A DNA stretch of 64,000 nt from contig NZ_CAJYOJ010000004.1 of the NCBI RefSeq assembly GCF_913776295.1, forward strand, positions 36,997 through 100,996, read 5' to 3'. Under the pieces are notes generated by a model that did not search any database, was not told the DNA's origin, and saw only the letters and a list, made by a program, of their open reading frames with translations. Position numbers and translations under genes: made by a program. This DNA is from an uncultured Pedobacter sp. GTDB taxonomy: Bacteria; Bacteroidota; Bacteroidia; Sphingobacteriales; Sphingobacteriaceae. Positions 16,271 through 50,387 of this stretch are shown here, one piece after another; the stretch's first letter is position 1, and the number at the start of each line of letters is the position of its first letter.

Positions 16271-16906
16271 ATGAACACTCCAGAAGAACAGTTAAACACC
16301 TTAAAAGATATCAGAAATATGATGGATAGATCATCCAGATTTATTTCTTTGAGTGGTTTGTCGGGTATTTTTGCGGGTGCTACAGCCTTGGCAGGTGCTT
16401 ACTTTGCAAACAACGAAATCAACAAATTCATCCAGAAAAGAGGTTATGGCTATGGAGTAGGCGGAGAATTGGACCTGGAATTTAACCTGATCAAACTCGG
16501 GATTTTTGTATTGGTAATTGCTTTAGCCGGGGGTGTTTTATTTACGTATAGAAAAAGTCAGAAAAATAAGCTTCCCATCTGGGATAAAACCTCTAAATCA
16601 CTTTTGATCAACCTATTTATTCCTTTGTTTGCCGGAGGACTATTTATTATCGCCTTATTGATCAACCATCCGAACACCTATAGTATCATCGCGCCAAGCT
16701 GCCTGATTTTTTATGGGCTGGCACTGATTAACGCCAGTAAATTTACCTATAGTGATATCCGCTATTTAGGCTTTTGCGAGGTGATATTGGGCTTGGTCTG
16801 TATGTTTTATGTGGGATATGGATTAATTTTCTGGGCTTTAGGCTTCGGTGTACTACACATTGTTTATGGTCTTTTGATGTATTTTAAATATGAGAAAGGT
16901 CAGTAA
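16271..16906 (+). CDS. Hypothetical multi-TM membrane protein
   Basis: Several hydrophobic segments; stop precedes the wHTH start by 2 nt, so likely co-transcribed. Confidence 0.7.
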   Translation: MNTPEEQLNTLKDIRNMMDRSSRFISLSGLSGIFAGATALAGAYFANNEINKFIQKRGYGYGVGGELDLEFNLIKLGIFVLVIALAGGVLFTYRKSQKNKLPIWDKTSKSLLINLFIPLFAGGLFIIALLINHPNTYSIIAPSCLIFYGLALINASKFTYSDIRYLGFCEVILGLVCMFYVGYGLIFWALGFGVLHIVYGLLMYFKYEKGQ

Positions 16907-16908
16907 GG

Positions 16909-17205
16909 ATGAAAAACCCGATAGCAGATTTAAATAAAATATTCGATAGCCGGATCAGGCTGGGCGTGATGTCTATGCTGGTGGTGAACAAAGAAATTGG
17001 CTTTAACGACTTAAAACAAATGCTCGAGTTGACGGACGGCAATTTGGCTTCACATCTAAACACCTTAGAACAGGCCGAATTTATCAAGGTACATAAGGGC
17101 TTTATTGGTCGTAAAACCAATACTACCTACTCCATTACCGATTTGGGAAGGCAGGCATTTAAAGCACACTTAGATGCACTTGAAAAAATGATCAGGAAGC
17201 TATAA
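16909..17205 (+). CDS. Winged-helix transcriptional regulator
   Basis: 'FDSRIRLGVMSMLVVNKEIGFNDLKQMLELTDGNLASHLNTLEQAEFIKVHKGFIGRKTNTTYSITDLGRQAFKAHLDAL'. Confidence 0.85.
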   Translation: MKNPIADLNKIFDSRIRLGVMSMLVVNKEIGFNDLKQMLELTDGNLASHLNTLEQAEFIKVHKGFIGRKTNTTYSITDLGRQAFKAHLDALEKMIRKL

Positions 17206-17225: not shown

Positions 17226-17242
17226 ACTTTGAAATACAAAGC
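17226..17242. promoter_or_regulatory. Candidate operator dyad ACTTTG-N5-CAAAGC
   Basis: ACTTTGAAATACAAAGC followed by ACTTTTAAAA, matching the arrangement at 16245-16270. Confidence 0.55.
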
Positions 17243-17261
17243 ACTTTTAAAAAACATAAAG

Positions 17262-17567
17262 ATGGAAGATATACGAGAACCTCAAATGAATTACGTAGGC
17301 AAAAGACTCGCTTACTATTCTGCGCTCATGGGAACATTGATATTCATAACCTACCTGATATCAGGATCTTTTCTCCTATTAGTCACCGGAGCTGTTTTTA
17401 CGCTAAGTGCAGCACTTATAAATATTACGGTAGTGGCGTTAATCGTAATAGAATTTATCAATTACCGAAATCATTGGAAAAATTCCCTGACCACAATCGT
17501 CTGCATGCTCTTGAACATCCCGTTAGCCGCTAGCTACATGCTTATATTAACTTATTTCCATTCTTAA
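17262..17567 (+). CDS. Hypothetical small membrane protein
   Basis: ATG at 17262 (MEDIREPQMNYVGKRL); two to three hydrophobic segments. Confidence 0.6.
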   Translation: MEDIREPQMNYVGKRLAYYSALMGTLIFITYLISGSFLLLVTGAVFTLSAALINITVVALIVIEFINYRNHWKNSLTTIVCMLLNIPLAASYMLILTYFHS

Positions 17568-17579
17568 ATCTTAAATTAA

Positions 17580-19139
17580 ATGAAAAATAAATCGAACCTC
17601 TTACTATTATCGGTCCTACTGGGCGGCCTCTTGTTTACTTTTCTTTTTTGGGAAGAAAGACTCGCGTTTAATCTCCTTATTTACAGTATCTATTTGCTGG
17701 CCATCACCTTTATTAATCCGGATGTGATTAAAAGTACCAAACTAAAAATTTACGGCCTGGCACACCTGCTGGCAGCGGTTCTGGTGGTGATTAACAATTC
17801 TGATTTAGCTTTGGTAACTTACTACATCAGCCTGCTCTTATTTATTGGTTTTGGTCATCAACAGCAAATCCGGACCATTTTTACTGCTTTTTTAGCAGCC
17901 ATTCTGCAGATTGTCACTGTGCCTTTTAATGCGATCAAACGATTAAGCCAGGTCAGTGTAGGCAAAGTGAGCCTTAACCCATTTTTTACCCTAATCAAAT
18001 ACATCTTTATACCAGTTATCATTGTAATCTTCTTTTCATGTCTTTATGCAGCCGCAAGTAACGTTTTTGCACATTATGCAGAAACCATCTTAACTAATAT
18101 TGGCGACTTCCTGGATCATTTGTTTCACTTCTTTTTTAAAGACCTGAGTTTTGAGCGCATCATGCATGTAGGCCTTGGACTGTTATTAACAGGAGGTTTA
18201 TTGCTCGCATTTTTGGATAAAAGTCTCGAAAAAGCGGAACTGAAATGCAAAGAACAATTGGTAAGGATGAGAAGACGTATCGGACAAAAAACGGTATGGT
18301 ACAACATCGCAGAAACATTTACCGGCAACCTGTTAACCCGGAAAATGGCTTTAAAAACGGAATATATTGTGGGCATTATTTCTTTTGCCGCACTTAATCT
18401 GTTGTTACTGATGTTAAACACCATCGATATCACAACACTTTGGTTTGGCTATGAACCTTCGGGCAATTTTTCTGAAGAACTGCACCAAGGTACAAATTCA
18501 TTGATCCTTAGCATTGTAATGGCCATGGCAGTAATACTCTATTATTTCAGGGGAAACTTAAATTTTTATCCCAAAAGTAAAACGTTGAGGGTATTGGCTT
18601 ACGCCTGGATGGTCCAGAATTTTATCCTGGTCATATCCGTATTTATTCGCGATGCTTACTATATCGAATTTCATGGTTTGACTCATAAAAGAATCGGCGT
18701 ATTGGTATTTGCCACCCTTTGCATCATTGGTTTGGCAACAGTTTATTTTAAAGTAGCCAAACAGAAAACCATCTTCTATCTTTTCAAAGTGAATGGAAAT
18801 ATCTGGTTTGCCCTGCTGTTGACATTTAGCTTTATTAACTGGGATGTTTTAATTGTGAAATACAACCTCAATCATGTTGACGCTATTGCTATTGATCCTT
18901 ATTATCTGACTTCCTTATCAGAAAAGACACTGCCTTTGTTAGATAAAAACCGGTCAAAAATACATCCTTCAGTCCACAACGATTCAGAAATCGCCAAGGT
19001 ATACCAGCCAGAAGCAGATTTAATGAGAAAACTGGATCAACGGATCGATTATTTTAAGGAAAGGTATGACCGAGAAAGTTGGTTATCATGGAATTTACAG
19101 GATTGGAATACAGCAGAATATTTTGGGCTTAAAAAATAA
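17580..19139 (+). CDS. DUF4173/DUF4153-like multi-TM protein
   Basis: Polytopic; 'YFRGNLNFYPKSKTLRVLAYAWMVQNFILVISVFIRDAYYIEFHGLTHKRIGV' resembles this family. Confidence 0.6.
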   Translation: MKNKSNLLLLSVLLGGLLFTFLFWEERLAFNLLIYSIYLLAITFINPDVIKSTKLKIYGLAHLLAAVLVVINNSDLALVTYYISLLLFIGFGHQQQIRTIFTAFLAAILQIVTVPFNAIKRLSQVSVGKVSLNPFFTLIKYIFIPVIIVIFFSCLYAAASNVFAHYAETILTNIGDFLDHLFHFFFKDLSFERIMHVGLGLLLTGGLLLAFLDKSLEKAELKCKEQLVRMRRRIGQKTVWYNIAETFTGNLLTRKMALKTEYIVGIISFAALNLLLLMLNTIDITTLWFGYEPSGNFSEELHQGTNSLILSIVMAMAVILYYFRGNLNFYPKSKTLRVLAYAWMVQNFILVISVFIRDAYYIEFHGLTHKRIGVLVFATLCIIGLATVYFKVAKQKTIFYLFKVNGNIWFALLLTFSFINWDVLIVKYNLNHVDAIAIDPYYLTSLSEKTLPLLDKNRSKIHPSVHNDSEIAKVYQPEADLMRKLDQRIDYFKERYDRESWLSWNLQDWNTAEYFGLKK

Positions 19140-19143
19140 GAAA

Positions 19144-19677
19144 ATGGAAAAGAATCGTAATCTGATGTATTATTTATTTGGCATCTTATTATTCGTGTGT
19201 TTTAAGTTAGCCTATATAACAATGGATGCTGAAAAGTTATCATTTATACTTAGTCCAACTGATTACTTCGTTTCAAAATCAACAAATTCCAATAGCAGAT
19301 GGATTGAGCATTTAGGTTATTATCATCAGGATCTTAATATTACAATAGAGAAATCGTGTTCAGGCTTCAATTTTTTCTCTCTAAGTTTTTTAATTACTTA
19401 TTGCCTATCCATTAGCTATTTGAAGCGTTTTAAATTAAAATGGATTACATTACCCGGTTCCCTGTTATTCAGCTGGATATTAACCATATTCGTTAATACT
19501 TCACGAATAAGCTCTTCCATTTTTATAGCTAACAGCATCAATATTCCAAAGCAGTATCAACCGCTTGTTCATCAAGCAGAAGGTACATTCATCTATCTAT
19601 TCTTTTTGATATTAACCTACAAATTAATTAATCATTTACTAAAAACATACGCTGTTCATTATGAAAAACCTGCTTAA
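19144..19677 (+). CDS. Exosortase, XrtK-like
   Basis: Polytopic with ordered exosortase residues: Cys in 'EKSCSGFNFFSLSFLITY', Arg in 'VNTSRISSSIF', His in 'HQAEGTFIYLFFL'. Start MEKNRN at 19144. Confidence 0.78.
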   Translation: MEKNRNLMYYLFGILLFVCFKLAYITMDAEKLSFILSPTDYFVSKSTNSNSRWIEHLGYYHQDLNITIEKSCSGFNFFSLSFLITYCLSISYLKRFKLKWITLPGSLLFSWILTIFVNTSRISSSIFIANSINIPKQYQPLVHQAEGTFIYLFFLILTYKLINHLLKTYAVHYEKPA

Positions 19678-22483
19678 TCCAAAATGGCTTATCGTAATTA
19701 GCATTATTCCATCAATAATACTGCTGCTGCTTTTCTACGGCCAATTCAGCATTATTAAAAGTTTGCTAAAAACAGAAACTGTAGAAATATGGTTAAATTT
19801 TTCATTAACAATAATGCTGTTGACCTGTGCACAGTTGGCTTATACCCTATTTAGCAGATACAAGAAGTACAACATATCTATATTTTATGCTTTTTTTAGC
19901 TTGTTGGCTTATACTATTTTTCTATATGCATATGCACAATATGCCGATATAATAATTCCGTTCTCAGTTCCGCAATGGATGATTAATGTGGATGTAATTT
20001 TATATCCGGGCACCTTTTTAATGCCCACTCTAATTCATTCACTTTTTATTTTGGTCGAGTTTTCGAGCCGGAAAAGCAGATCATCGTCAGCCTGGTTAAG
20101 TTTTATGTATGGAATCTCAATACCTATACTAGGATATGTATTTTTACAGATTGTACTTCCCTTATGGAAAAAACCGGAAAGCAGTTTTGATACAAATGTA
20201 TTGATGATATTATTCATCATTGCCTCTGTACTATTCCTATTCTTTATTTGTCGTGGCATCTATATTATTACAAAATTAAATACTCTAAAATTTTCAAAAT
20301 ATATTGTTTTCATCAAAGTACTAATTGCCATTATTTTACCAATTGTCGGATTATTGATTAACAATGGGAGACTTAGACTTACAGGTAACTTGGGTGAATC
20401 TATATTTGGAAATTTTAGCAGCATTTGGTTCTATATCATTGCTATCATAAATGGGATATTGGTATGTTTGCCCAGCTTCAGAAACGTCCATATACGTTTG
20501 CTCCGATTTTTAGCGCTTGCGATCTGCTTTCCCTATACACTCTATTTTTTTCTTGTCTTTTTACCTTATTTACCTTTAGCGATAATTGCAATAATTGTTA
20601 TTGGTGCAGGTTTTCTGATGTTGGCACCACTCTGTCTATTTGTTGTACAGATTAATGAATTACTTAAAGATTTTAATGCTTTGGCAAGAAATTACTCCCG
20701 CACAAGACTAACAGCCTACACAAGCATTGCTTTATTAACCATCCCAGTTTGTATTACTACCCTTTATTTACACGACAGGTACGTCTTGAACAAGGCGTTG
20801 GAGTATGTGTACAATCCAGATTATGCTAAAAAATATAACATTGATAAGCAATCCTTAGCCAGAACATTGTTGAGAATACGACAGCAAAAAGGAAGAAGTA
20901 ATTCCTTATCGGAAGAGAAATCGCCATTTTTAACACCGTATTATAATTGGCTGGTATTTGATAATCTGGTTTTGTCCGAAAACAAGATTAATACTTTAAT
21001 GGCCATTTTTTTAGGCGAAAGTGAGCAAGAGCAAGTTCCAGCCATTCAAACCACCAGTAAAGTAAAAATATCTAAAATTTCGAGTGTAACTAAATTTAAT
21101 CAGGCACAACAGGCATGGATCAGCAACATTGATCTTGAACTTACAAACCCCGAACAAACAAATTTAGAAAGCTATGAAACAGCATTTATTTTACCTGAAG
21201 GTTGCTGGATCAGCAATTTCTATTTAAATATCGGCAATAGAAAGGAATATGGAATATTAGCCGAGAAAAAAGCAGCACTTTGGGTTTTCTCACAGATCAG
21301 AAACGAGAACCGCGATCCCGGTATTTTGTATTATTTAACCGGGAATAAAATTGCATTTAAAGTTTTTCCTTTTTCATCCCGACAAACCAGAAAAAGTGGA
21401 ATAGAATTAATCCATAAAGTGCCAATAAATCTCAAAATAGATAACAAAATTATTTTACTTGGCGATAGCAACACACCTAGAAGTCATAAAATCGAATCCA
21501 TCAATGGAACAGTTTACCTACCTGCTGCTGAGAAAGCAAAGTTAAAACTGATTAAAAGAAGACCAGAATACCATTTTATTATTGACGTTTCCAAAACTTG
21601 CGCAACAAGTAAAGCCGAATATGTTAAACGCATCAATAATTTTATAAGCAAAAATCAAATCGATCAACAGAACATCAGATTAAATTTTGTGAGCACTTTT
21701 AATGAGGAAATAGCCTATACAGCCGATTGGAAAGATAAACTCTACAGACAAAGTTTCGATGGTGGTTTTTATTTGGAAGGAGCGATCAAAAAAATCTTAG
21801 TGGAGAACTATACAGCCAACAGTAGTGCACATCCGATTATGGTGGTGGTAAGCAATACATTAGCGAAAAGCATATTACAGAATGATCTTGCCAATTTTAA
21901 AATAACATACCCAGAAAGTGATGATTTTTATGAGCTTGATCAATCGGGTAACTTGTATAGCCATTCGCTAGTGAATAAACCCGAACAGCGGTTGAATGCC
22001 GTGCAGGCAATAAATAACCCCGCAGTTTACTGTTGGCCTGATCCGCTGAAAACGAAAGCTTATCTGGCGAATGATGGACAGCCTTCCATCATTATCGATC
22101 GCTCTATAAAAGCAGTTAGCCAAAATGCTATTGATAAAAGGAATTGGCTATCTGGCTTGAACTTACATGGAATGTGGCTTAAAAGCCAGATAAATTGCGA
22201 GCAGTATAACCAATCACAACTCAATCTAATAAAACAGAGCATGCGAACAGGCTTTTTATCCAGATCAACATCCTACTTAGTTGTTGAGAATGAAGCGCAA
22301 AAACAGATGCTAAAGAAAAAACAAAATCAAATTTTATCGGGTAACAAAAACTTAGATCCTGATGAAGACACGCAAAGCATGGACGAACCAAACTTATATA
22401 TCCTCATTACCATAATAATCATGTTTTTCTTATGTTATTCCAGAAATAAACTAAACTTTTCATCTAAAACAAACAGTAATTAA
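19661..22483 (+). CDS. MSEP-CTERM-like sorting-domain protein (multi-TM N-terminus, VIT/vWA-like central region)
   Basis: Immediately downstream of, and overlapping, the exosortase gene. C-terminus 'SMDEPNLYILITIIIMFFLCYSRNKLNFSSK' = short motif, TM, basic tail. Central 'ISKISSVTKFNQAQQAWISNIDLELTNPEQTNLESYETAFILPEGCWISNFYL' is VIT-like. Confidence 0.7.
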   Translation: MKNLLNPKWLIVISIIPSIILLLLFYGQFSIIKSLLKTETVEIWLNFSLTIMLLTCAQLAYTLFSRYKKYNISIFYAFFSLLAYTIFLYAYAQYADIIIPFSVPQWMINVDVILYPGTFLMPTLIHSLFILVEFSSRKSRSSSAWLSFMYGISIPILGYVFLQIVLPLWKKPESSFDTNVLMILFIIASVLFLFFICRGIYIITKLNTLKFSKYIVFIKVLIAIILPIVGLLINNGRLRLTGNLGESIFGNFSSIWFYIIAIINGILVCLPSFRNVHIRLLRFLALAICFPYTLYFFLVFLPYLPLAIIAIIVIGAGFLMLAPLCLFVVQINELLKDFNALARNYSRTRLTAYTSIALLTIPVCITTLYLHDRYVLNKALEYVYNPDYAKKYNIDKQSLARTLLRIRQQKGRSNSLSEEKSPFLTPYYNWLVFDNLVLSENKINTLMAIFLGESEQEQVPAIQTTSKVKISKISSVTKFNQAQQAWISNIDLELTNPEQTNLESYETAFILPEGCWISNFYLNIGNRKEYGILAEKKAALWVFSQIRNENRDPGILYYLTGNKIAFKVFPFSSRQTRKSGIELIHKVPINLKIDNKIILLGDSNTPRSHKIESINGTVYLPAAEKAKLKLIKRRPEYHFIIDVSKTCATSKAEYVKRINNFISKNQIDQQNIRLNFVSTFNEEIAYTADWKDKLYRQSFDGGFYLEGAIKKILVENYTANSSAHPIMVVVSNTLAKSILQNDLANFKITYPESDDFYELDQSGNLYSHSLVNKPEQRLNAVQAINNPAVYCWPDPLKTKAYLANDGQPSIIIDRSIKAVSQNAIDKRNWLSGLNLHGMWLKSQINCEQYNQSQLNLIKQSMRTGFLSRSTSYLVVENEAQKQMLKKKQNQILSGNKNLDPDEDTQSMDEPNLYILITIIIMFFLCYSRNKLNFSSKTNSN

Positions 22484-22588: not shown

Positions 22589-22900
22589 ATGAAAAATTTA
22601 AAGTCAACATTTGTTTCACCGTCAACACGTATTGCCATCATCGTTGGGATTACAGCGTTCATTCTAAGCATTCCGCTTATCGCTATGCAATTTACAAACG
22701 AAGTGGATTGGACGCTATCCGATTTTCTAACCGCAGGAATTTTATTGCTCAGCACAGGTTTTGCCACTGAACTGGTTATTAGAAACCTAAAAACCGGCAC
22801 ATTAAGAACAATAATTCTCCTTGTCATTTTGCTAATGCTATTCCTGATCTGGGCAGAGCTTGCCGTGGGCGTTTTCGGAACGCCGTTTGCAGGCAGTTAA
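22589..22900 (+). CDS. Hypothetical small membrane protein
   Basis: 103-aa ORF with three hydrophobic stretches. Confidence 0.55.
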   Translation: MKNLKSTFVSPSTRIAIIVGITAFILSIPLIAMQFTNEVDWTLSDFLTAGILLLSTGFATELVIRNLKTGTLRTIILLVILLMLFLIWAELAVGVFGTPFAGS

Positions 22901-36418: not shown

Positions 36419-37102
36419 CTAAGCTTTAACCGCCAAATCTTCTTTTACCACGCCATCGGCAATATGTAATATCCGGTTTCCATACTGCGCGTTCCTTTCT
36501 GAATGGGTAACCTGAATAATGGTAATCCCCTCCTCTTCATTCAGCTTTTTAAACAGCGTCATGATTTCTTCTGCCTGCGCCGATTGCAGATTACCTGTTG
36601 GCTCATCAGCCAGAATAATAGAGGGTTGTGCAGCCAAGGCCCTGGCAATGCCCACTAACTGTTGCTGACCTCCGGATAACTGATTGGGAAACAAATCCTT
36701 TTTAGCCACGATATTAAAACGGTCAAGCAAATCAGCTATCCTGCTGGCTCGCTCGGCGCTGCCTATCTTCTTGTATAATAGAGGGGCTTCAATATTTTCG
36801 TACACGGTCATTTCGTCAATTAAATGGTAAGCCTGAAATACAAAACCGATATGGTTTCGGTAAAGCTCAATTCGTTTACGTTCATTTAAACTGGTTACAT
36901 CTTCGCCCATAAAGTAATAATTACCATAAGTGGGCTCTTCTAACATGCCTATAATGTTAAGCAAGGTAGATTTTCCGGCACCGGATGGCCCCATGATGGA
37001 AACAAATTCGCCTTGATTTATGGTAGTGGTGACCAGGCGTAATACATAATTTTTAACGCCTTTGCTGGCGTAGTACTTTTCGATATTGGTAAGTTGTATC
37101 AT
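36419..37102 (-). CDS. ABC transporter ATP-binding protein (MacB/LolD type)
   Basis: '[20 protein letters not shown]', 'LSGGQQQLVGIARAL', 'IILADEPTGNL'. Confidence 0.92.
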   Translation of the reverse strand: MIQLTNIEKYYASKGVKNYVLRLVTTTINQGEFVSIMGPSGAGKSTLLNIIGMLEEPTYGNYYFMGEDVTSLNERKRIELYRNHIGFVFQAYHLIDEMTVYENIEAPLLYKKIGSAERASRIADLLDRFNIVAKKDLFPNQLSGGQQQLVGIARALAAQPSIILADEPTGNLQSAQAEEIMTLFKKLNEEEGITIIQVTHSERNAQYGNRILHIADGVVKEDLAVKA

Positions 37103-37191
37103 ATTTTTTAAGGTTGAGGGTTAAAAGGTTAAAGGTTTGAAGGTTTTGGACAATTTCGCCTTCTACCTAAAAAACTTCTGCCTTCTCGCCG

Positions 37192-39618
37192 TTATTCATA
37201 TTTAAGTGCATTCACCGGATCAGTCACAGCGGCCTTTCTTGCCTGTATACTCACCGTAAGGATGGCTATAATTACAGAAATTAATGTAGCAGCAGCAAAA
37301 GGCATAAAGGGTACGTCTATGCGGTAAGCAAAGCCTTCGAGCCATTGTTTTATAATGATGTAGGCGATAGGCCAGCTCACTAGGTTGGCCACGATAACCA
37401 GAATTAAAAACGATTTGTTAAGCAAACTTATAATCTGGATATTTGATGCACCGAGCACTTTCCTTACTGCAATCTCCTTGGTCTTCCGCTTAGTCACAAA
37501 TGTAGAAAGCGCAAATAAACCAAGCAATGAAAGGGAAACAGAAACCAGGCTGAACAGGATAATCATGTTCATAAACCGCCTGTTTTCTTCCAGGCTTTTT
37601 GAAAAAGCATCATCCATAGAATAGTACTCTATCGGAAAGTTCGGATACAGCATTCTCCACTCCTTTTCAATTTTGCCGATGATCTCTTTAGGTCGCGCCG
37701 TATTGAAACGAACCAGTAAATTGTTTGTATTTGAAGTACCTCCAAGTCTGGTTACCTTATAAACCGTTGGCAAAACTGCTTTATCAAAGCCTTCGTTATG
37801 ATAGTTTTTAATAATGCCAACCACCTGAAAAACATTGTTCTTCCCTTCCCAATCAGTTTTTTGATAGGTCTGCCCGATTAAATTTTTTCCGAATAAATTT
37901 GCCGCTGCTTCGTTTAAAACTACAGTATTAACCGTATCGCTTTTATATTCCCGGGAAAAAATCCGGCCTTGCAATACTTTCACACCAAGCGCCGGCAGAG
38001 CGTCCATCGTAACGGTAACGGTATTTAACTTTATGGGTTTACCCTTGTATTTAATTTCTTCAGGCACATTAAAACTATTTCCCAACACCTGCGTAGTAGT
38101 TGCGACATATTGAATGCCGGGTATTTTCTTCAGCCTATCGGCAAATTTGTCTTCATAACTGGTTTTAATATTGATCAGATTTCCTCTTTCAAAGCCTAAA
38201 TCCTTGCTACTCATAAACCGGGACTGCATTTCCATTACACCAATGGATATGATAAACGTCACCGAAATGACAAACTGAAAGATAACCAATACGTTACGAA
38301 GAACTACGCCTCGCAAACCGTTTTCGTAATTGCCTTTTAAAACAGCTACAGGATTATAATTAGATAAAACCCAGGCCGGGTATAAACCGGCAAGCAAGGT
38401 TACAAACACAAACAGTCCTACCAGCTGAGCAATCAGGACCAATAACCTGGCATTGTGCCAAAAACTTAAAGCCACATTAAACTGCTGGTTAAAAGCTGGC
38501 AAAACCATTTCAATTAAAACAATACAGAGAAAAAGCGAAATCAGGCTCTGCAACCCCGATTCAACCAAAAACTGAGTGGTCAATTGGCTTTTATAAGAAC
38601 CCAGTACCTTTTTTACCCCTACTTCCTTGGCCCGCTGAACAGATTGTGCCGTGGCCAGATTGATAAAATTAATGATGGAAACCAGGAGTAAAAATGCCGA
38701 TATGGCCATTACAGGTTTTAACTTTTCGAACCAGCTCAGGGTATACGGCGGATTGGAATGCACAGTTGCTAACGGGATGACTTTTAAGCCCGGCAACTTT
38801 TTAGGTTTTTGCATATCTTCATAATCCTCCTCCTGTCCTTTCAATAAGTTTTTCCTGAAATCGACATATAATTTCTGTAAAGTCTGGTTCAATACCAACG
38901 TATCGCTGGCTTTATTCAGTTTAATGAACATCAGGCAATAATTGTTATTGGTCGGTTCATCAGGGTCTTTATCTTTAGTTCCGGTTCTCATAATGGCACT
39001 AAAATGAACACTTTGTGGCGTTTTAGGCTCACTGATTATTCCGGTAACCGTTAATACATTGCCTTTATCGTCCCTCCAGCGGATAATTTTTATTGTTTTA
39101 CCCAAAGCTTTTGTTGTGCCGAAAAGCTTTAAGGCAAGGCTTTCTTTTAAAACGATCGTGTTCTTGTTTTCAAGCGCTTTATCGGCACTGCCCTGAACAA
39201 ACTGATAATCGAAAACCTTAAAAAAGCTGCTATCCGAATCTTTGATCTTATTCACCATAACCGGATCGGCGTTGTCTGTTTTAACCGAATAACCACTGCC
39301 AAAACTCCAGTCGTTATCTACTTTAGTCACTGCAACTGCCTGTGGCAATTTCGTCCTGATCAAATTTGCGATGCGGCTATTTGAAACCTCATTCCAGTGT
39401 TCCTTATTATCAGGGGTAAAAAAATCATGTTTTTCTCTGATTTGATAAACATTTTTTAATTCGGGAGACCATTTATCGTAACTCTCTTCATGATTAATAT
39501 ATAAAATCATAAGCACAAAAGCAGTTAAACCAAGTGCCAGTCCGACGATATTGATAGCGGCATATACCTTGTTTTTCCAAAGGTTTCGTAAAGCGATTTT
39601 AAGGTTAAGTTTAAACAT
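37192..39618 (-). CDS. FtsX/MacB-type ABC permease, paralogue 5 of operon
   Basis: 'MFKLNLKIALRNLWKNKVYAAINIVGLALGLTAFVLM', 'KEIAVRKVLGASNIQIISLL', ends 'DPVNALKYE'. Confidence 0.92.
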   Translation of the reverse strand: MFKLNLKIALRNLWKNKVYAAINIVGLALGLTAFVLMILYINHEESYDKWSPELKNVYQIREKHDFFTPDNKEHWNEVSNSRIANLIRTKLPQAVAVTKVDNDWSFGSGYSVKTDNADPVMVNKIKDSDSSFFKVFDYQFVQGSADKALENKNTIVLKESLALKLFGTTKALGKTIKIIRWRDDKGNVLTVTGIISEPKTPQSVHFSAIMRTGTKDKDPDEPTNNNYCLMFIKLNKASDTLVLNQTLQKLYVDFRKNLLKGQEEDYEDMQKPKKLPGLKVIPLATVHSNPPYTLSWFEKLKPVMAISAFLLLVSIINFINLATAQSVQRAKEVGVKKVLGSYKSQLTTQFLVESGLQSLISLFLCIVLIEMVLPAFNQQFNVALSFWHNARLLVLIAQLVGLFVFVTLLAGLYPAWVLSNYNPVAVLKGNYENGLRGVVLRNVLVIFQFVISVTFIISIGVMEMQSRFMSSKDLGFERGNLINIKTSYEDKFADRLKKIPGIQYVATTTQVLGNSFNVPEEIKYKGKPIKLNTVTVTMDALPALGVKVLQGRIFSREYKSDTVNTVVLNEAAANLFGKNLIGQTYQKTDWEGKNNVFQVVGIIKNYHNEGFDKAVLPTVYKVTRLGGTSNTNNLLVRFNTARPKEIIGKIEKEWRMLYPNFPIEYYSMDDAFSKSLEENRRFMNMIILFSLVSVSLSLLGLFALSTFVTKRKTKEIAVRKVLGASNIQIISLLNKSFLILVIVANLVSWPIAYIIIKQWLEGFAYRIDVPFMPFAAATLISVIIAILTVSIQARKAAVTDPVNALKYE

Positions 39619-39695
39619 CTTTTTAAGGTTTAGGGTATGGCGTTTAGCGATGAGCGGGAAAATTACGCTGTACGCTAAGCGCTTACCGCAGGTTA

Positions 39696-42089
39696 TTATT
39701 CATATTTAAGTGCATCAATGGTATTTGCCGAGGCCGCTTTATATGAGCGAACACTAACCGTAACCAGTGTAATTGCCATTGATATGGCCATAGCCAATGT
39801 AAATGGCCAGATACTGATATCAATTCGATAGGCAAAACCGGCTAACCATTTCGAAACAAAAAGGTAAGCCACGGGCCATGCCACAATGTTGGCAACGAAG
39901 ACCATAACAAGGAAAGACCCATTCAGCATTTTTACGAGCTCAAGCGTTGAAGCTCCAAGAACTTTGCGGATAGCAACTTCTTTGGTCCTTTGTGTGGCCA
40001 CAAATGAAATTAATCCGAATAAACCGATAAATGAAATGAAAATAATCACACCGGCAAATATTTTAAACAACACCCCCATAATCTGTTCGCTTTCATAATA
40101 ACCGTTAATAGTTTCATTTACAAAAGCTGAATCAAAAACCCCATTAGGAAAAGTACTGTTCCATATTTCATCAATCTCTTTCATTGTAGCAGCAATTTGT
40201 TTGCTGTCTATTTTAACCGCCACATTCCAATACTCATTTTTTCCGGGAAAAATGGCAATTGCCGAAATCTGCTCGCGTAATGATTGGTCGTTAAAATCTT
40301 TTACCACACCCACAATCGGCACGGTATTTCCGCTCGTAACAATCACTTTTCCAATAGCCTCCTGAGGATTAGTAATTGACATTTTCTTTAAAAAGGTTTC
40401 GTTAACCACACAGCCATTTGCGGTATCACTCTTACGATATAATTTTCCGGCAATTAATTTTAAATCAAAAACCTTGAAGAAATTTTCATCTGCCCGAATA
40501 TTCCTTAATTCGAAATCTTTGTTTTTGACACCATTATAGGTAAAATCGCTGGAGTTAATATTACTGGATAATGGCGGCGACTGGCAAAAACTGATGTTGT
40601 TAACACCCGAAAGTTTGCTTATCCGCTCTTTAAAAGTGTTGTATTTGATTTTACTTATACTGTCATTAGGGATACCAACCATAGCTACAGCACTGGGATT
40701 GAATCCCAGCGATTTTTGCTGCACGTATTCCATCTGCCTGATCACTACCAAAGTTCCGACAATAAGTGTTACTGTAATTGCAAATTGAGCTACCACTAAA
40801 ATTTTTCGAAGGCTTAACCCTCCCTTATTCAAGGCAATTTTATTTTTTATGGCCAGTGCAGGTTTAAAACCGGAAATAACAAGTGCCGGATAAAAGCCAG
40901 CAAGAAAAGAAATGAATATAACCAGTATGGCCATGAATGAAAAAATTGATGGATGACCAAAAAGGCTGAATTCGATCCTGCCCCTGAAAAGATGCTGCAT
41001 GGTCGGTATGGCGAGTTCAGTAACTACACATGCAATAAGTAAGGCGGCTAAACTGACTACAAAAGTTTCGGTTAAGAACTGATAGATCAGTTGGCTGCGT
41101 TTGCTGCCCATTACTTTACGAACCCCAACCTCTTTTGATCGGGTTACTGATTGTGCAGTACTTAAATTAATGAAATTAATACAGGCAGTAATGATCAGGA
41201 ACAAACCAATTATAGCCAGCCCGTAAATCTGGCTTCTGTTGATGGAACTGTTTGCAAAATTATCGTATTTATCGCTGAAATGAATAGCTCTTAATAACTG
41301 TAATTTATTTTCTTGATTACCGGCTATTTTATTAACAGGATAATATTTCTTATTAAAGTTGGCTATTGATTGTTGCAAATCTTCAGCTTTAAGACCTTCT
41401 TTTAGCAGCACATAACTACAAAAGGCGGAGTTGACTGAATCCCAGTTACTATTAAACCGACCTTTGTAGGTTTCGTAACTAATTACAATTTTTAAAGGGA
41501 AACTACTGTTCTGAGGCATATCCTGAATAATGCCAGCTACTTTCAGGGTAATTTTTTCGCCAAGCCTGATATTATTTCCAATCGCTTCTTTCACGCTACC
41601 AAAAAACTTTTTAGCATATTGGGCTGACAGCACCACAGTATTGGGTTCTGCCAGGGCCAGTTCCGGCGCACTGTAGATCCACCTAATATCACTTAAGACA
41701 TTAAAAAAATCGGGTTGCGCATAATATACAGCCTCCTGACTTTTCATTTTCTCTTTTCCGCTGGCATCGTTTATCTGTAGAAAGGCATTTCTTTTTACAA
41801 TTGAACCCACTTTTTCAAATCCTGCAATTTCATTCCTGGCGGCTGCAGCAAAAGGTACGGGTACTCCTGAAGAAAAATCTTCGTAGGCGCTATATTTCCA
41901 GTCGGTAACTACCCGATAAATCCGATCCTCATTTTTATAACCTTCATCGAAACTGAGCTGAAAACGGATAAAAATGAAAATCAGGATACAGCTTGCCATC
42001 CCTATAGATAAGCCAAGAATATTGATCAGCGTATAACCTTTGTTTTTCCAGAGGTTTCGCCAGGCGATTTTGAGGTTGAGTTTGAACAT
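39696..42089 (-). CDS. FtsX/MacB-type ABC permease, paralogue 4
   Basis: 'MFKLNLKIAWRNLWKNKGYTLINILGLSIGMASCILIF', ends 'NTIDALKYE'. Confidence 0.92.
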   Translation of the reverse strand: MFKLNLKIAWRNLWKNKGYTLINILGLSIGMASCILIFIFIRFQLSFDEGYKNEDRIYRVVTDWKYSAYEDFSSGVPVPFAAAARNEIAGFEKVGSIVKRNAFLQINDASGKEKMKSQEAVYYAQPDFFNVLSDIRWIYSAPELALAEPNTVVLSAQYAKKFFGSVKEAIGNNIRLGEKITLKVAGIIQDMPQNSSFPLKIVISYETYKGRFNSNWDSVNSAFCSYVLLKEGLKAEDLQQSIANFNKKYYPVNKIAGNQENKLQLLRAIHFSDKYDNFANSSINRSQIYGLAIIGLFLIITACINFINLSTAQSVTRSKEVGVRKVMGSKRSQLIYQFLTETFVVSLAALLIACVVTELAIPTMQHLFRGRIEFSLFGHPSIFSFMAILVIFISFLAGFYPALVISGFKPALAIKNKIALNKGGLSLRKILVVAQFAITVTLIVGTLVVIRQMEYVQQKSLGFNPSAVAMVGIPNDSISKIKYNTFKERISKLSGVNNISFCQSPPLSSNINSSDFTYNGVKNKDFELRNIRADENFFKVFDLKLIAGKLYRKSDTANGCVVNETFLKKMSITNPQEAIGKVIVTSGNTVPIVGVVKDFNDQSLREQISAIAIFPGKNEYWNVAVKIDSKQIAATMKEIDEIWNSTFPNGVFDSAFVNETINGYYESEQIMGVLFKIFAGVIIFISFIGLFGLISFVATQRTKEVAIRKVLGASTLELVKMLNGSFLVMVFVANIVAWPVAYLFVSKWLAGFAYRIDISIWPFTLAMAISMAITLVTVSVRSYKAASANTIDALKYE

Positions 42090-42166
42090 ATGGTTTAAGG
42101 TTTAGGGTGTAGGGTTTAAGGTCTGGGCGCTTTTACCTTACGCCCTCAACCTCCAAACCTTCTGCC

Positions 42167-44548
42167 TCATTCGTATTTAAGTGCATCAACAGCATTGGCT
42201 TTGGCAACTTTAAACGTTTGCAGGCTAACTGTAATCAAAGCAATCAGTATCGATGTTAAAAGTGCCAGCAAAAAAGGCCATGGGTTTATCGAAATTTTAT
42301 AATCATACTTTTCCAGCCATTTAGCCACGAGGATGTAAGCCACCGGAATGGCAATCAGATTGGCAATAACCACCAACTTCATAAAATCTTTGTTCAGCAG
42401 GATTAAAATATCGGAAAGGTTAGCACCTAATACCTTGCGGATGCTGATTTCTTTGCTGCGCTGTTCGGCCATATAAAGCGCCAGCCCTAATAAGCCAAGG
42501 CACGATATAAAAATAGCGAAGCCTCCAAAGATATTAGAAAGTACACTTAAAAGCTTTTCGCTTTTTATTTTTTCAGCCATGCCGTCGCTTACCAATCTTA
42601 TTTCTATTGGATATGCCGGATTTAAACGTTGACTGACCTGTTTAATAGTTTCAAGCGACGCTGTTAACGACTGCCTGGTATTTAGCCTAAGCAACAGTGT
42701 CTCGCTTTTTTTCGCATTATAATAATAAACGGTTGGTGAAACTCTGGCTCCTAAAGATTCGTTAAAGAAATCCTGTACAACTCCGACCACTTTTAGCGGT
42801 GGATTACCAGCCCATGTAATAACGGTTCCAACAGGATTTTTCAATTTCATTACCTTTACAGCTTCCTGATTTAATAATAAAGAAGTCGCTGTATCTGCAG
42901 GAAATTGCGGTGCGAAGTCTCTTCCTGCAACAATTTTAATACCTGCTGTATTGGCAAAGTTAAAACCGGTACTTCTATAACTGATGATCGAAACATCATT
43001 TTTGGGTTTATCAGGCCATGAAATATCGCTTGTAATGTTTCCACTACGCGTAAATGAACTGGCATATTCTGTAGCTGATTCAATTGCACCAGCACGTTTA
43101 AGCTCGTCCTTGAAAACTTCCAGTTTACTTGGATTTGTTAACATACCTTCCAAATCTATTTGCGCAAGTGCAGCAACATCAAATCCAAGCGGTTTATCCC
43201 GCATGTACTGCATCTGCTTATAAATTACTATGGCAGATATAATCATGCAGATGGAAAGACTAAACTGTAATACCACCAATGTTTTGCGGATAGAAAATGA
43301 ACCTGTTGAACCTTTAAAACCTTTAAGCACTTTTACCGGAATAAAAGAAGAAAGGTAAAATGCCGGGTAGCTTCCGGCAAGTAAGCCCGTAATCAATATC
43401 ATTGACAGTAACAGTACCCAAAACGGGTAAGAACTGTAATCAATCTTAATGGAAATATTAAGCAGGTTATTAAAATAGGGCAAGGAAAGTTCGAGCGTAA
43501 TGAAAGCAATGGCCATCGCTACAACTGACAATAATAACGATTCGATCATAAATTGTCCCATAATGGTATTTCGGGTGGACCCCAAAGCTTTCCGCACACC
43601 AACTTCCCTGGCCCTTTTTTCTGATTTTGCCGTAGAGAGGTTCATGTAATTGATGCAGGCAATAAGCAATACGCAAATGGCCAGAAAAACAAATAGACGC
43701 AATTGATCTATTTTACCTCCAGCCGATTTTCCGTTCTCAAAATGATCGTACAAATGGAATTTAGCCAAAGGAAAAAGAAAAAGCTGGTATGTCATTTCTT
43801 TCAGATCAGCTTCTTTATTCACGATAAAGTTTTTAATGGCTGTGTTAGTAGCGGTTAAATCGGCATTATCTTTTAGCTGGAATAAAGTTAAACAGGTGAT
43901 AGCGCCCCATCCGTTTTCTCTCTCGCCCGGATTTTCCTGTTCATAAAATGTCCAGGGCTGTAAAACATCAAACTGAATGGTCTGGTTTTTAGGCAGGTCT
44001 TCAATTACTGCACTTACCTTCAAACTGATTTTATTGTCGTAAGTAATAAGCTGGCCCAGCGGATTTTGATTGCCAAACAACTTCTTAGCTGTAGAGGTAT
44101 TGATCAATACATTATTCGGTTCGGCCAATGCTGTTTCTGGATTACCATAAATAAATTTCTGACCAAGGATTTGCAAGAAACTTGGATCCGCACTTAATGC
44201 TTCCAGTTTAAAATGATTCTGATCATGGCTGTAAAGCCTGGTGTTGCCAGGCATGGTGATGCGTGCAGCATTTTTAATACCCGGAAGTTCAATCATGGCA
44301 GCATTGGCCAACTTATTTGGCACCGCCATGGTTGTAGCTAACTTGCCGTTATATTTCAGGTTTAAAGTTGCGAAATAAACATCATCGGCATTTTTATATT
44401 GTTTATCGAAACTCCATTCGTAATTGACATACAGCAATAACATTAAGCAACAAGCCATACCAATAGCCAGGCCACCAACATTGATTAATGTAAAGCCTTT
44501 GTGTTTCCATAGGTTGCGTAAGGCGATTTTTAGATTTAATTTGAACAT
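42167..44548 (-). CDS. FtsX/MacB-type ABC permease, paralogue 3
   Basis: 'MFKLNLKIALRNLWKHKGFTLINVGGLAIGMACCLML', ends 'NAVDALKYE'. Confidence 0.92.
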   Translation of the reverse strand: MFKLNLKIALRNLWKHKGFTLINVGGLAIGMACCLMLLLYVNYEWSFDKQYKNADDVYFATLNLKYNGKLATTMAVPNKLANAAMIELPGIKNAARITMPGNTRLYSHDQNHFKLEALSADPSFLQILGQKFIYGNPETALAEPNNVLINTSTAKKLFGNQNPLGQLITYDNKISLKVSAVIEDLPKNQTIQFDVLQPWTFYEQENPGERENGWGAITCLTLFQLKDNADLTATNTAIKNFIVNKEADLKEMTYQLFLFPLAKFHLYDHFENGKSAGGKIDQLRLFVFLAICVLLIACINYMNLSTAKSEKRAREVGVRKALGSTRNTIMGQFMIESLLLSVVAMAIAFITLELSLPYFNNLLNISIKIDYSSYPFWVLLLSMILITGLLAGSYPAFYLSSFIPVKVLKGFKGSTGSFSIRKTLVVLQFSLSICMIISAIVIYKQMQYMRDKPLGFDVAALAQIDLEGMLTNPSKLEVFKDELKRAGAIESATEYASSFTRSGNITSDISWPDKPKNDVSIISYRSTGFNFANTAGIKIVAGRDFAPQFPADTATSLLLNQEAVKVMKLKNPVGTVITWAGNPPLKVVGVVQDFFNESLGARVSPTVYYYNAKKSETLLLRLNTRQSLTASLETIKQVSQRLNPAYPIEIRLVSDGMAEKIKSEKLLSVLSNIFGGFAIFISCLGLLGLALYMAEQRSKEISIRKVLGANLSDILILLNKDFMKLVVIANLIAIPVAYILVAKWLEKYDYKISINPWPFLLALLTSILIALITVSLQTFKVAKANAVDALKYE

Positions 44549-44620
44549 AAGGTTTAAGGTTTATGGCATAAGGTTTAGGGTCTGGCGCACCTTACGCCTC
44601 CGACCTTTCAACCTTCTGCC

Positions 44621-46999
44621 TTATTCGTATTTTAAAGCATCAACTGGGTTGGCTTTCGCCGTTTTATAAGCCTGAAAGCTTACCGTAACTAAAGCCATTA
44701 GCAAAGTACCAAAAGTAGCTACCGGCATAATCCACCAGCTAAATTCTGTGTGATATTCAAAATTATTCAGCCATTTCCCCATTATATAATAACTTACTGG
44801 AATGGCAATTACAATGGCTACAGCGATCATTTTAAGGAAAGACAGGGATAGTAACTGCATTAAATTGGCTACCGATGCACCTAAAACCTTTCGAACACCA
44901 AATTCTTTGGTACGTTGTTCTGCACTGTAGGCAACCAAACCAAATAAACCCAGGCAGGAAACGAAAATGGCCAGGCCACCAAATAAATTGGAAAGAATAC
45001 CCAAGGTTTTTTCTGATTTATATTTTTCCTGATATAATGAATTTATAAAGGTAATTTCCGTTGGATATGCAGGATTAAAAGCCTTTGTAATCCTGCTGAT
45101 GGTTTCGATGTTACGCTGGAGGTTATTTTTATTATTCAAACGCATGGTGATGGTGCCTGTTTGATACTGATTTAAAAAGATCACCTGAGGGTTATTGGAT
45201 TTGTAAGGTGAATCCCAAACGTAATCATCAAAAACCCCGATGATGTTTACATTCGACCCGAAAATCGTTATTTTTTTCCCGATAGGATCCTGGTAACCGA
45301 ATACCTTCACAGCCGAAGCACTCACCATAACCCCGCTGGAATCGGAAGCAAAGTTTTTTGAAAAATCGCGGCCTGCTATCAATTTAATGCCATTTGTTTT
45401 GATGAAATCGTAAGTGGTAGCCACCTGGTTAAACATCACTGTATTTTCTGGCTTCGTCATGCCATCCCATTTGACATCCATAAAGTTACGCCCATGGTGA
45501 GACAGGCTGACGGACGACTGATACATCGACGTTACCGCACCCGACCTCAACATTTCGGTTTTGAACAAGTCAAATTTATTTTTCAGTTCGCCATCCTGAG
45601 GAAGTTCGACAAGTGTATTCACGTCGAAACCAACCGGTTTATTCTTAATGTACTGAATCTGGCGGTAGATGACCAAAGTGGCAATAATTAAAATAATGGC
45701 GAAACAGAACTGCCCGACAACGAGTACCTGCCTCAGGCTTATGTCCGCAACCCCCCGGGATGAGATTTTCCTTCTTAAGGTTTGAATCGGATTAAACGCA
45801 GACAGATAAAACGCGGGATAGCTCCCTGCAATTAAGCCGGTTGCAAAAACAATTCCTAAAATACCAAGCCAACTTGCTGAATTAAAATACGATATGCCCA
45901 GATTAATGTTTAACAGCCTGTTGAACGCCGGCAGGCATATCTCCAGCAATGCAATGGCTATGATGACCGCCACAAAAGTCAGTACCATCGATTCTGTTAA
46001 AAACTGCATCACCAGCGAGGCGCGGTCTGCACCGATTGTTTTCTTTATTCCAACTTCTTTGGCGCGTTTCTCCGATTTAGCGGTCGCCAGGTTCATGAAG
46101 TTGATACAGGCGATTAATAATATTCCGAATGCCATTCCTACGAAAAGCCAGATTTGTTCGATATCACCCCCTGCCGGTTTGCCATTATCAAATTTACCAT
46201 AAAGATGCAATTTGCTTGCCGGATATAAAAAATTTGGTTGCCATTGCCCGTCCTGATCTGTATTTGCCTTAACCAGTGCTTCAATTTTCTGATTCACCAG
46301 TTCGATATCTGCATCCGGCCGCAATGAAACCATCGTAACAAAACTATAATTGGTCCAGTTTAAATCTCTTGCATTATCATCTACAATTTCGTAAAACGAC
46401 CAGGGCATTAAAAAATCGAAGCGGTTGGAACTGTTTTCAGGTAAATCTTTGATTACTCCGGTAATGTTCAGGTTTTCCTGATCCTGGTAACGAACCGATC
46501 TGTTCAGCACGTTGGTGGTTCCAAATAAAGTCCTGGCGGTACTTTCCGTCAAAACCACTGAACGCGGATGACTCAGCGCCGTTTTGGCATCCCCGGCTAT
46601 AAAATGATAGTCATACATTTTCAGAATGCCCGGTTCTGCAAATTTCGACTCTTTTTTATAGCTGTTCTGTCCGTTAGCAATCAGGCTTTTTCTGCCATAA
46701 TCCATTCGGGCAATGTATTTCACTTCAGGCAGTTCCTGTTTTAACAGCGGGCCCAATGCAGTTGTCGAACCATTAAATGTTCCTGCAATTTTACCACCAT
46801 CGCCCGGCACGTTCGTCATGGCAACATATACATTGCGCCAGTTTTTCGCCTGCCTATCAAAGTTCCACTCATAGGTTACGTAAAGTAATAACATCAAACA
46901 AGCGGTCAAGCCAATAGCCAGGCCAATTACATTGATGAAAGAAGAGGTTTTGTTCTTCCACAGATTCCGTAATGCGATTTTTAAGTTGAGTTTGAACAT
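44621..46999 (-). CDS. FtsX/MacB-type ABC permease, paralogue 2
   Basis: 'MFKLNLKIALRNLWKNKTSSFINVIGLAIGLTACLML', ends 'NPVDALKYE'. Confidence 0.92.
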   Translation of the reverse strand: MFKLNLKIALRNLWKNKTSSFINVIGLAIGLTACLMLLLYVTYEWNFDRQAKNWRNVYVAMTNVPGDGGKIAGTFNGSTTALGPLLKQELPEVKYIARMDYGRKSLIANGQNSYKKESKFAEPGILKMYDYHFIAGDAKTALSHPRSVVLTESTARTLFGTTNVLNRSVRYQDQENLNITGVIKDLPENSSNRFDFLMPWSFYEIVDDNARDLNWTNYSFVTMVSLRPDADIELVNQKIEALVKANTDQDGQWQPNFLYPASKLHLYGKFDNGKPAGGDIEQIWLFVGMAFGILLIACINFMNLATAKSEKRAKEVGIKKTIGADRASLVMQFLTESMVLTFVAVIIAIALLEICLPAFNRLLNINLGISYFNSASWLGILGIVFATGLIAGSYPAFYLSAFNPIQTLRRKISSRGVADISLRQVLVVGQFCFAIILIIATLVIYRQIQYIKNKPVGFDVNTLVELPQDGELKNKFDLFKTEMLRSGAVTSMYQSSVSLSHHGRNFMDVKWDGMTKPENTVMFNQVATTYDFIKTNGIKLIAGRDFSKNFASDSSGVMVSASAVKVFGYQDPIGKKITIFGSNVNIIGVFDDYVWDSPYKSNNPQVIFLNQYQTGTITMRLNNKNNLQRNIETISRITKAFNPAYPTEITFINSLYQEKYKSEKTLGILSNLFGGLAIFVSCLGLFGLVAYSAEQRTKEFGVRKVLGASVANLMQLLSLSFLKMIAVAIVIAIPVSYYIMGKWLNNFEYHTEFSWWIMPVATFGTLLMALVTVSFQAYKTAKANPVDALKYE

Positions 47000-47082
47000 A
47001 TTTTGAGATTGAGGTTAAAAAGGTTGAGGGTTGAGGGATTTGGGCGTTTTAACCTTACGCCCTAAACCTTTAACCCTACACC

Positions 47083-49452: not shown

Positions 49453-49688
49453 ATTTGTTAAGGTTGAAGGTTGGAAGGTTAAAAGGTTTGAGCGAATAAA
49501 CTATACGCCTTCTACCTTTAAGCCTTTTACCTTGTGGTTGCCAATCCCGGATCTCCCCATCCGGGAAGATCACTGAGCGGCTATTATTAACTAAACTAAA
49601 ATCTCTTTTAGGGTTGGAAGGCGGTAAGGCGGAAGGTTAAAGGCCGATACAATTCCACCTTCTACCTTAAAACCTTCAGCCTCTCTCC

Positions 49689-50387
49689 TTATATCAATTC
49701 TTCATTCCTGCTTTTATTTATTTTTTCGGATATCACATGTCCGTCTTTCAGGTTGATAATCCGGTTAGAGAAACTGGCATCGTGACTGGAGTGGGTAACC
49801 ATTATAATGGTGGTTCCGGTCTCATTCAGCTCGCAGAGCAACTCCATTACCTCATTACCATGCGAACTATCCAGGTTTCCGGTAGGCTCATCGGCCAGAA
49901 CCAATTTTGGTTTGGTAACCAGGGCCCTTGCTACGGCTACTCTTTGCTGCTGTCCGCCGGACAATTGTTGTGGAAAATGCCCGCTACGGTTTACGATATT
50001 CATCCGCTCAATAATTTCATTTACGAGTATCTTGCGCTCGCCAGCAGGAATTTTGTTATAAATTAACGGTAATTCAATATTTTCAAAAACGGTTAATTCA
50101 TCAATCAAATTGAAATTCTGGAAAACAAATCCCATATTTTTCTTTCGGAAATTGGAACGTTCCCTGTCGTTTAAGGTTAAGAGCTCTGTGCCTATAAATT
50201 TGTAACTTCCGCTTTCGGGCTTGTCTAATAAACCCATTACATTTAACAAGGTAGATTTCCCACAGCCGGATGGCCCCATGATAGAAACAAACTCTCCTGC
50301 TGCAACATGAAGGTTAATGCCATTAAGCGCTGTAGTTTCTACTTCTTCCGTTTTGTAAACTTTTTCCAGATTTTCTATTTTTATCAT
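49689..50387 (-). CDS. ABC transporter ATP-binding protein (MacB/LolD type)
   Basis: 'GPSGCGKSTLLNVMGLLDKPESG', 'LSGGQQQRVAVARALVTKPKLVLADEPTGNLD'. Confidence 0.94.
   Translation of the reverse strand: MIKIENLEKVYKTEEVETTALNGINLHVAAGEFVSIMGPSGCGKSTLLNVMGLLDKPESGSYKFIGTELLTLNDRERSNFRKKNMGFVFQNFNLIDELTVFENIELPLIYNKIPAGERKILVNEIIERMNIVNRSGHFPQQLSGGQQQRVAVARALVTKPKLVLADEPTGNLDSSHGNEVMELLCELNETGTTIIMVTHSSHDASFSNRIINLKDGHVISEKINKSRNEELI

Follow-up and report, generated by a model that had tools for sequence, protein, structure and literature searches.

Several described sorting systems stand close to the one studied here. For archaeosortase A, a model has been put forward in which Cys-173 forms a thioester and an ethanolamine lipid takes part (PMC7157517). 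For the substrates, variation of the sorting tail among bacterial VIT/vWA proteins was described in 2011, together with the notion of a dedicated system (PMC3237569). Other systems are catalogued as curated protein models: exosortase K (XrtK) with its MSEP-CTERM protein, exosortase N (XrtN) with a VIT-domain cargo and exosortase X (XrtX) with PID-CTERM proteins. Our search of the open literature found no mention of exosortase K, MSEP-CTERM, XrtN, PID-CTERM or XrtX in this sense, which is no proof of absence. Here we analyzed two adjacent genes in a 64-kb stretch of DNA from an uncultured Pedobacter sp. (contig NZ_CAJYOJ010000004.1; the whole stretch is called the window), which a preliminary description had read as an exosortase-K-like enzyme with a single MSEP-CTERM-type substrate. 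The pair is an ordinary member of the already catalogued exosortase K/MSEP-CTERM system, and its relatives in the genus Hymenobacter provide strong indirect evidence that the C-terminal tail of the cargo is the signal of the enzyme.

The enzyme and its cargo

Both open reading frames start with ATG and lie on the same strand, with an overlap of 17 nucleotides:

19144..19677, forward strand: exosortase K (XrtK), 177 amino acids; TIGR04287, E-value 1e-39, 135.7 bits (cut-off 55)
19661..22483, forward strand: MSEP-CTERM cargo, 940 amino acids; TIGR04286, E-value 1.6e-262, 873.5 bits (cut-off 150)

Family calls were judged by the cut-offs of the NCBI curated models (NCBIfam), which enzyme and cargo both exceed by far, in agreement with the preliminary assignment. 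The alignments span nearly the whole profiles (positions 2 to 161 of 163 for XrtK, 1 to 918 of 920 for the cargo), and XrtK also carries the exo_archaeo signature TIGR04178. The strings quoted earlier (EKSCSGFNFF, NTSRISSS, HQAEGTF and ...SMDEPNLYILITIIIMFFLCYSRNKL) are all present at the locus, and the length of about 178 amino acids given for the enzyme is within one residue of that measured. The exosortase N system was rejected as the identity of the pair, the window proteins reaching 19.7 bits for TIGR04476 (cut-off 200) and 43.5 bits for TIGR04477 (cut-off 250). Searches of the window's own genome gave one match for XrtK, the locus itself, and one for the cargo family. This genome also encodes a second exosortase (L122:1219-1800, on contig C79 of G000), which matches exosortase Y (NF046083, 2.1e-70) and is over the cut-off for XrtY, not for XrtX.

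The residues expected for an exosortase occur in the expected order, and no substitution was seen among 34 aligned XrtK proteins:

19357..19359, forward strand: Cys72, predicted nucleophile, invariant in 34/34 homologues
19504..19506, forward strand: Arg121, predicted catalytic residue, invariant in 34/34 homologues
19570..19572, forward strand: His143, predicted catalytic residue, invariant in 34/34 homologues

The AlphaFold model of XrtK is confident and helical (predicted local distance difference test, pLDDT, of 89.5); a fold search with it against solved structures returned no significant match. The helical model and the positive-inside charges of the loops agree with a polytopic enzyme whose catalytic face is predicted to look toward the periplasm.

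The tripartite tail

The C-terminus of the cargo is built of a short motif, a membrane helix that begins two residues after it, and a basic end with the residues RNK:

22379..22390, forward strand: M907-D908-E909-P910, predicted recognition motif in a disordered periplasmic linker (pLDDT below 50 at residues 902-911)
22394..22462, forward strand: C-terminal transmembrane helix, residues 912-934 (AlphaFold)
22463..22480, forward strand: C-terminal cytoplasmic end, with basic R929 and K931 at the end of the helix; the C-tails of homologues have an excess of K/R over D/E

The M, E and P are invariant in all 29 aligned cargos that retain an M-x-E-P tail, with Ser as the usual residue at the second position. 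The preliminary description had stressed that the motif reads MDEP rather than MSEP. MDEP is indeed present, and the same four residues are found in P. terrae, P. fastidiosus, the remnant of another genome of the genus (G090, see below) and G283; it is therefore an ordinary variant of M-x-E-P and not the mark of a separate system. The earlier reading of the pair as enzyme and substrate is supported, and none of the findings that it had named as refuting turned up: both proteins match their models, the Cys/Arg/His triad does not vary and M-x-E-P is conserved. A second M-x-E-P tail was looked for in the window and over 1.22 Mb, about 29%, of one Flavobacterium genome; the cargo was the only credible match, and within that scope one enzyme with one substrate fits everything seen.

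Architecture of the cargo

The rest of the cargo, for which the AlphaFold model is also confident (pLDDT 83.8), consists of a polytopic N-terminal part followed, up to the final helix, by a beta-rich region:

19682..20812, forward strand: eleven transmembrane helices predicted within residues 8-384, the N-terminus lying inside (helices from AlphaFold; the number of K and R per loop alternates between inside and outside in 33 homologues)
21125..21394, forward strand: VIT domain, residues 489-578 (PF08487, 1.2e-5, 25.9 bits, just below the Pfam cut-off of 26.5; Foldseek)
21560..21940, forward strand: vWA-like domain, about residues 634-760, fold supported by AlphaFold and Foldseek

A functional metal ion-dependent adhesion site (DxSxS...T...D) was not found in the vWA-like domain, where the site is incomplete: D642 and S644 are conserved among the homologues, but not the second Ser, and 31 of 33 have Phe or Tyr in place of the Thr. 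Because the loop charges alternate and the N-terminus is inside, the VIT/vWA-like region and the M-D-E-P motif are predicted to be periplasmic, on the same face as the Cys, Arg and His of XrtK. Foldseek matched the soluble part of the cargo to inter-alpha-inhibitor heavy chain 1 (E-value 3.6e-10). Members of that heavy-chain family are themselves joined covalently, by their C-terminus, to a glycan; for the cargo (21125-21940), the likeness is by analogy only.

Co-occurrence of XrtK and cargo

Scanning genome contigs with the cargo alignment, we found 37 loci, nearly all in Bacteroidota, and XrtK lies immediately upstream of the cargo in most of them. One pair (L096:7451-10661) comes from outside this phylum, in a bin named Ca. 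Fibrimonadales, for which a transfer and a binning error are both possible. The two genes also occur together at the level of genomes: in the window's own family, XrtK is over the cut-off in 3 of 151 genomes and the cargo in the same 3, and in a sample of the phylum the 4 genomes with XrtK over the cut-off (out of 393) each have the cargo. In the Cytophagales outside Hymenobacter, all eight genomes in which the cargo has no adjacent XrtK encode the enzyme elsewhere, which ruled out a loss of XrtK in them; their tails read MSEP, SSEP, ASEP and once MSEW. About 1000-aa VIT proteins of Sphingobacteriaceae match the cargo model over the VIT stretch only, in loci too short for their C-termini to be read, and were not counted.

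Damaged copies were also encountered. In G090 a deletion fuses XrtK to the cargo (L053:9742-11071): the enzyme keeps its Cys and Arg and ends after the Arg region, so that the part around its His is gone, as are two thirds of the cargo, of which the C-terminal third with its MDEP tail is kept. We read this as a pair that decayed together. The cargo of P. terrae carries, relative to the window, a one-base frameshift (L111:10432-10471), either a real decay or a sequencing error. An apparent frameshift in the cargo of P. fastidiosus proved to be a masked run of N and was dropped as evidence.

A change of tail in Hymenobacter

The most informative comparison came from 115 Hymenobacter genomes, of which 41 have the cargo, 15 XrtK and 81 XrtX. 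Tails were counted for 40 of the 41 cargos; the last one, in G587 (L195), is a fragmented wreck whose remnant still shows a PTAVPLND tail. Wherever XrtK is present the cargo ends in M[ST]EP (15/15). In the genomes without XrtK, all 25 readable tails have instead P-[LIV]-D followed by a hydrophobic helix and a basic end, that is, a tail of the PID-CTERM type, and XrtX is found in 24 of these 25 genomes, the exception being a metagenome bin. Four genomes have both XrtK and XrtX, and there the cargo stays MSEP. The bodies of the MSEP and PID cargos can be aligned to within about 10 residues of the motif, where they begin to diverge.

A tree of the cargo bodies was computed with the tails removed (37 of the 40 Hymenobacter cargos and 5 outgroups). 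The PID-tailed cargos form one group nested within the MSEP-bearing ones, with full support in the Shimodaira-Hasegawa-like approximate likelihood ratio test (SH-aLRT), and independent repeated switches were rejected since the tree requires a single change. The sequences thus indicate one ancestral tail switch in Hymenobacter, kept since. For the same reason, the pattern of 15 versus 25 tails does not amount to 40 independent observations. The loss of XrtK with the gain of the tail of another enzyme is strong, if indirect, evidence that the tail is the enzyme's signal.

The operon and its neighborhood

In the window, the pair is flanked by genes of a conserved operon:

16271..16906, forward strand: M211, 211-aa membrane protein without Pfam family, present in 58 of the 61 genomes searched in the window's genus
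16909..17205, forward strand: HTH_34 winged-helix DNA-binding protein, probable operon regulator (PF13601, 1.3e-28)
17229..17567, forward strand: small membrane protein of 112 amino acids, no family, operon position conserved
17580..19139, forward strand: DUF4153 polytopic membrane protein (PF13687, 2.4e-42; synteny)
22589..22900, forward strand: M103, 103-aa membrane protein, the right flank of the XrtK and cargo block in several Pedobacter genomes

The order widely kept in Pedobacter is a LolD-like ATPase (on the opposite strand), M211, HTH_34, the small membrane protein, DUF4153, M103 and sucC. XrtK and the cargo are inserted between DUF4153 and M103 in the window and in P. terrae, and other Pedobacter genomes are without both, i.e., the pair is present or absent as one block. 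No remnant of either gene was detectable in the corresponding gaps of 13 other Pedobacter genomes, and the idea that genomes without the pair keep such remnants in place was rejected.

Outside Pedobacter, HTH_34 (on the same strand) and M211 also lie upstream of XrtK in loci of Flavobacteriaceae, Chitinophagaceae and Marinifilaceae, and some XrtK operons of relatives include CreD, DUF218 or DUF1361. In several genomes HTH_34 and M211 precede the XrtN cargo and XrtN as well, in one case with CreD, and therefore two different exosortases, each dedicated, are found with a VIT cargo downstream of one type of regulator. Deletion of CreD damages envelope integrity in Stenotrophomonas (PMC4689548). 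By analogy, an operon with a winged-helix regulator, DUF4153 or CreD, and DUF218 suggests a role in the integrity of the cell envelope, if the effect of CreD may be extended from Stenotrophomonas to the XrtK operon.

Elsewhere in the window, five tandem permease-like open reading frames of 789-808 amino acids lie on the reverse strand between two ABC ATPases (36419-50387); all three that were scanned have MacB_PCD and FtsX domains.

Proposed mechanism and alternatives

The computations show to which families the two proteins belong, which residues are conserved, what topology is predicted, that enzyme and cargo occur together and that tail and enzyme covary; catalysis, the exact cut site, the transfer, its acceptor and the envelope role are inferred. 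In the scenario that we consider probable, XrtK acts in the membrane as a cysteine transpeptidase that serves only the neighboring cargo, an inner-membrane protein which it tethers or matures. The cargo would be held in the inner membrane by its eleven N-terminal helices, with the VIT/vWA-like domain exposed to the periplasm, and Cys72, with Arg121 and His143, would meet the M-D-E-P motif on the periplasmic face. XrtK would cut within or beside this motif, the last (twelfth) helix would be discarded and the new C-terminus of the cargo would be kept as a thioester on the enzyme. This C-terminus would then be handed to an envelope acceptor, which may be an amine-bearing lipid; the chemistry is modeled by analogy on that of archaeosortase A. 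With the N-terminal helices still in place, removal of the tail would likely leave the cargo in the inner membrane, matured or covalently tethered, and would not yield a secreted surface protein. More tentatively, XrtK may, instead of sorting a surface protein, bridge the C-terminus of an inner-membrane protein covalently to a component of the envelope, in an operon for envelope maintenance whose sorting enzyme (XrtK, XrtN or XrtX) would be exchangeable and whose type of cargo would be constant.

Several points weigh against the transpeptidase scenario. We know of no experiment on XrtK, and our search of the open literature found none. In G697 the cargo tail reads MSEW and not MSEP though the genome has XrtK (L203), and in several relatives the motif is SSEP or ASEP. 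The PID tails all sit on one branch of the tree, hence one evolutionary event, and only a part of the PID-tailed cargos that were scanned are over the cut-off of the PID_CTERM model, others being under it and one without match. The envelope role is drawn from the neighbors, which several loci do not have. Finally, a simple protease would account for the same data.

This last alternative survives best, and we still hold it unlikely. XrtK would only cut, as a dedicated membrane protease that frees or activates the periplasmic domain of the cargo with no transfer to an acceptor. The covariation of enzyme and tail is expected equally in that case, and a cargo already retained by its N-terminal helices has no need of C-terminal anchoring. 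It has against it the set of Cys, Arg and His, which we take to be that of transpeptidase-type sortases and not of rhomboid-type proteases. Moreover, archaeosortase A couples cleavage to the attachment of a lipid, and without the enzymes of the lipid pathway cleavage stops (PMC7157517).

For the Hymenobacter switch, a drift of the tail after the loss of XrtK, without a new enzyme to process it, seems improbable to us. In its favor, the change happened once, some of the tails score poorly with PID_CTERM, and XrtX is common in the genus anyway (81 of 115 genomes). Against it, the P-[LIV]-D motif, the hydrophobic helix and the basic end were kept in every readable tail across a deep clade, two of the switched cargos reach 46.5 and 40.3 bits with PID_CTERM (cut-off 26), and XrtX accompanies the PID tail in all genomes except the one bin.

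The preliminary description spoke of a sorted surface protein, which is probably wrong. Sorting to the cell's outer surface, which has been proposed for PEP-CTERM proteins, would agree with the way exosortase systems are generally described and with a cyanobacterial exosortase that is needed for motility and biofilm (PMC12188702). The eleven predicted N-terminal helices of the cargo, with their consistent positive-inside charge, would still sit in the inner membrane once the tail is removed, and release to the surface is therefore very improbable. Hardly any credence goes to a tail that is an ordinary twelfth membrane helix with XrtK as a structural partner, without processing: XrtK is small, its gene overlaps that of the cargo as those of subunits often do, and processing of the cargo is so far a prediction, but the catalytic-type residues are invariant, so is the motif though AlphaFold leaves it disordered, and where XrtK is lost the cargo bears the tail of another exosortase's substrates.

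Comparison with known systems

With exosortase K and MSEP-CTERM proteins, the window pair shares near-full-length matches, adjacent overlapping genes and the succession of M-x-E-P, helix and basic tail; it differs by Asp for Ser at the second position of the motif, a minor variant also present in its Pedobacter relatives and G283. The interest lies less in this pair than in its relatives: within one genus, the same cargo body bears two tails, each matching the exosortase of its genome. This match, together with the four genomes that have both enzymes and keep the XrtK tail, is natural evidence that the specificity of exosortases sits in the last few dozen residues of the substrate. Exosortase N with its VIT cargo also has a dedicated enzyme beside one VIT-domain protein and shares the upstream HTH_34 and M211 in several genomes, but XrtN has about 440 amino acids and its own model, and its cargo ends in VPEP. 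Exosortase X and PID-CTERM proteins (NF046081 and NF046080) are linked to the pair through the Hymenobacter cargos without XrtK, and are otherwise another enzyme family with another motif. At one locus (L116:1231-2304), a 357-aa open reading frame joins an XrtX to a region that matches, under the cut-off, the associated membrane protein family NF046082. Archaeosortase A from Haloferax volcanii belongs to the same enzyme superfamily by TIGR04178 and shares the proposed cysteine thioester chemistry, whereas its substrates are many and a lipid anchor has been proved experimentally (PMC7157517). The eleven-helix cargo of XrtK raises the question of the role of an exosortase when its substrate cannot leave the membrane.

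As for the VIT/vWA region, which had been called unusual for a target of this kind, VIT-type proteins with LPXTG, PEP-CTERM and GlyGly-CTERM tails, some of them beside a dedicated sortase, were already described in 2011 (PMC3237569), and a VIT domain is also part of the XrtN cargo. The marine sortase target TIGR03788 of the same study differs from our cargo: the sequence similarity is weak, the enzymes are different and the eleven-helix N-terminus is absent from its description. Since variation of the tail in VIT homologues was thus already described, the switch in Hymenobacter is, as far as could be found, a new instance of a known pattern.

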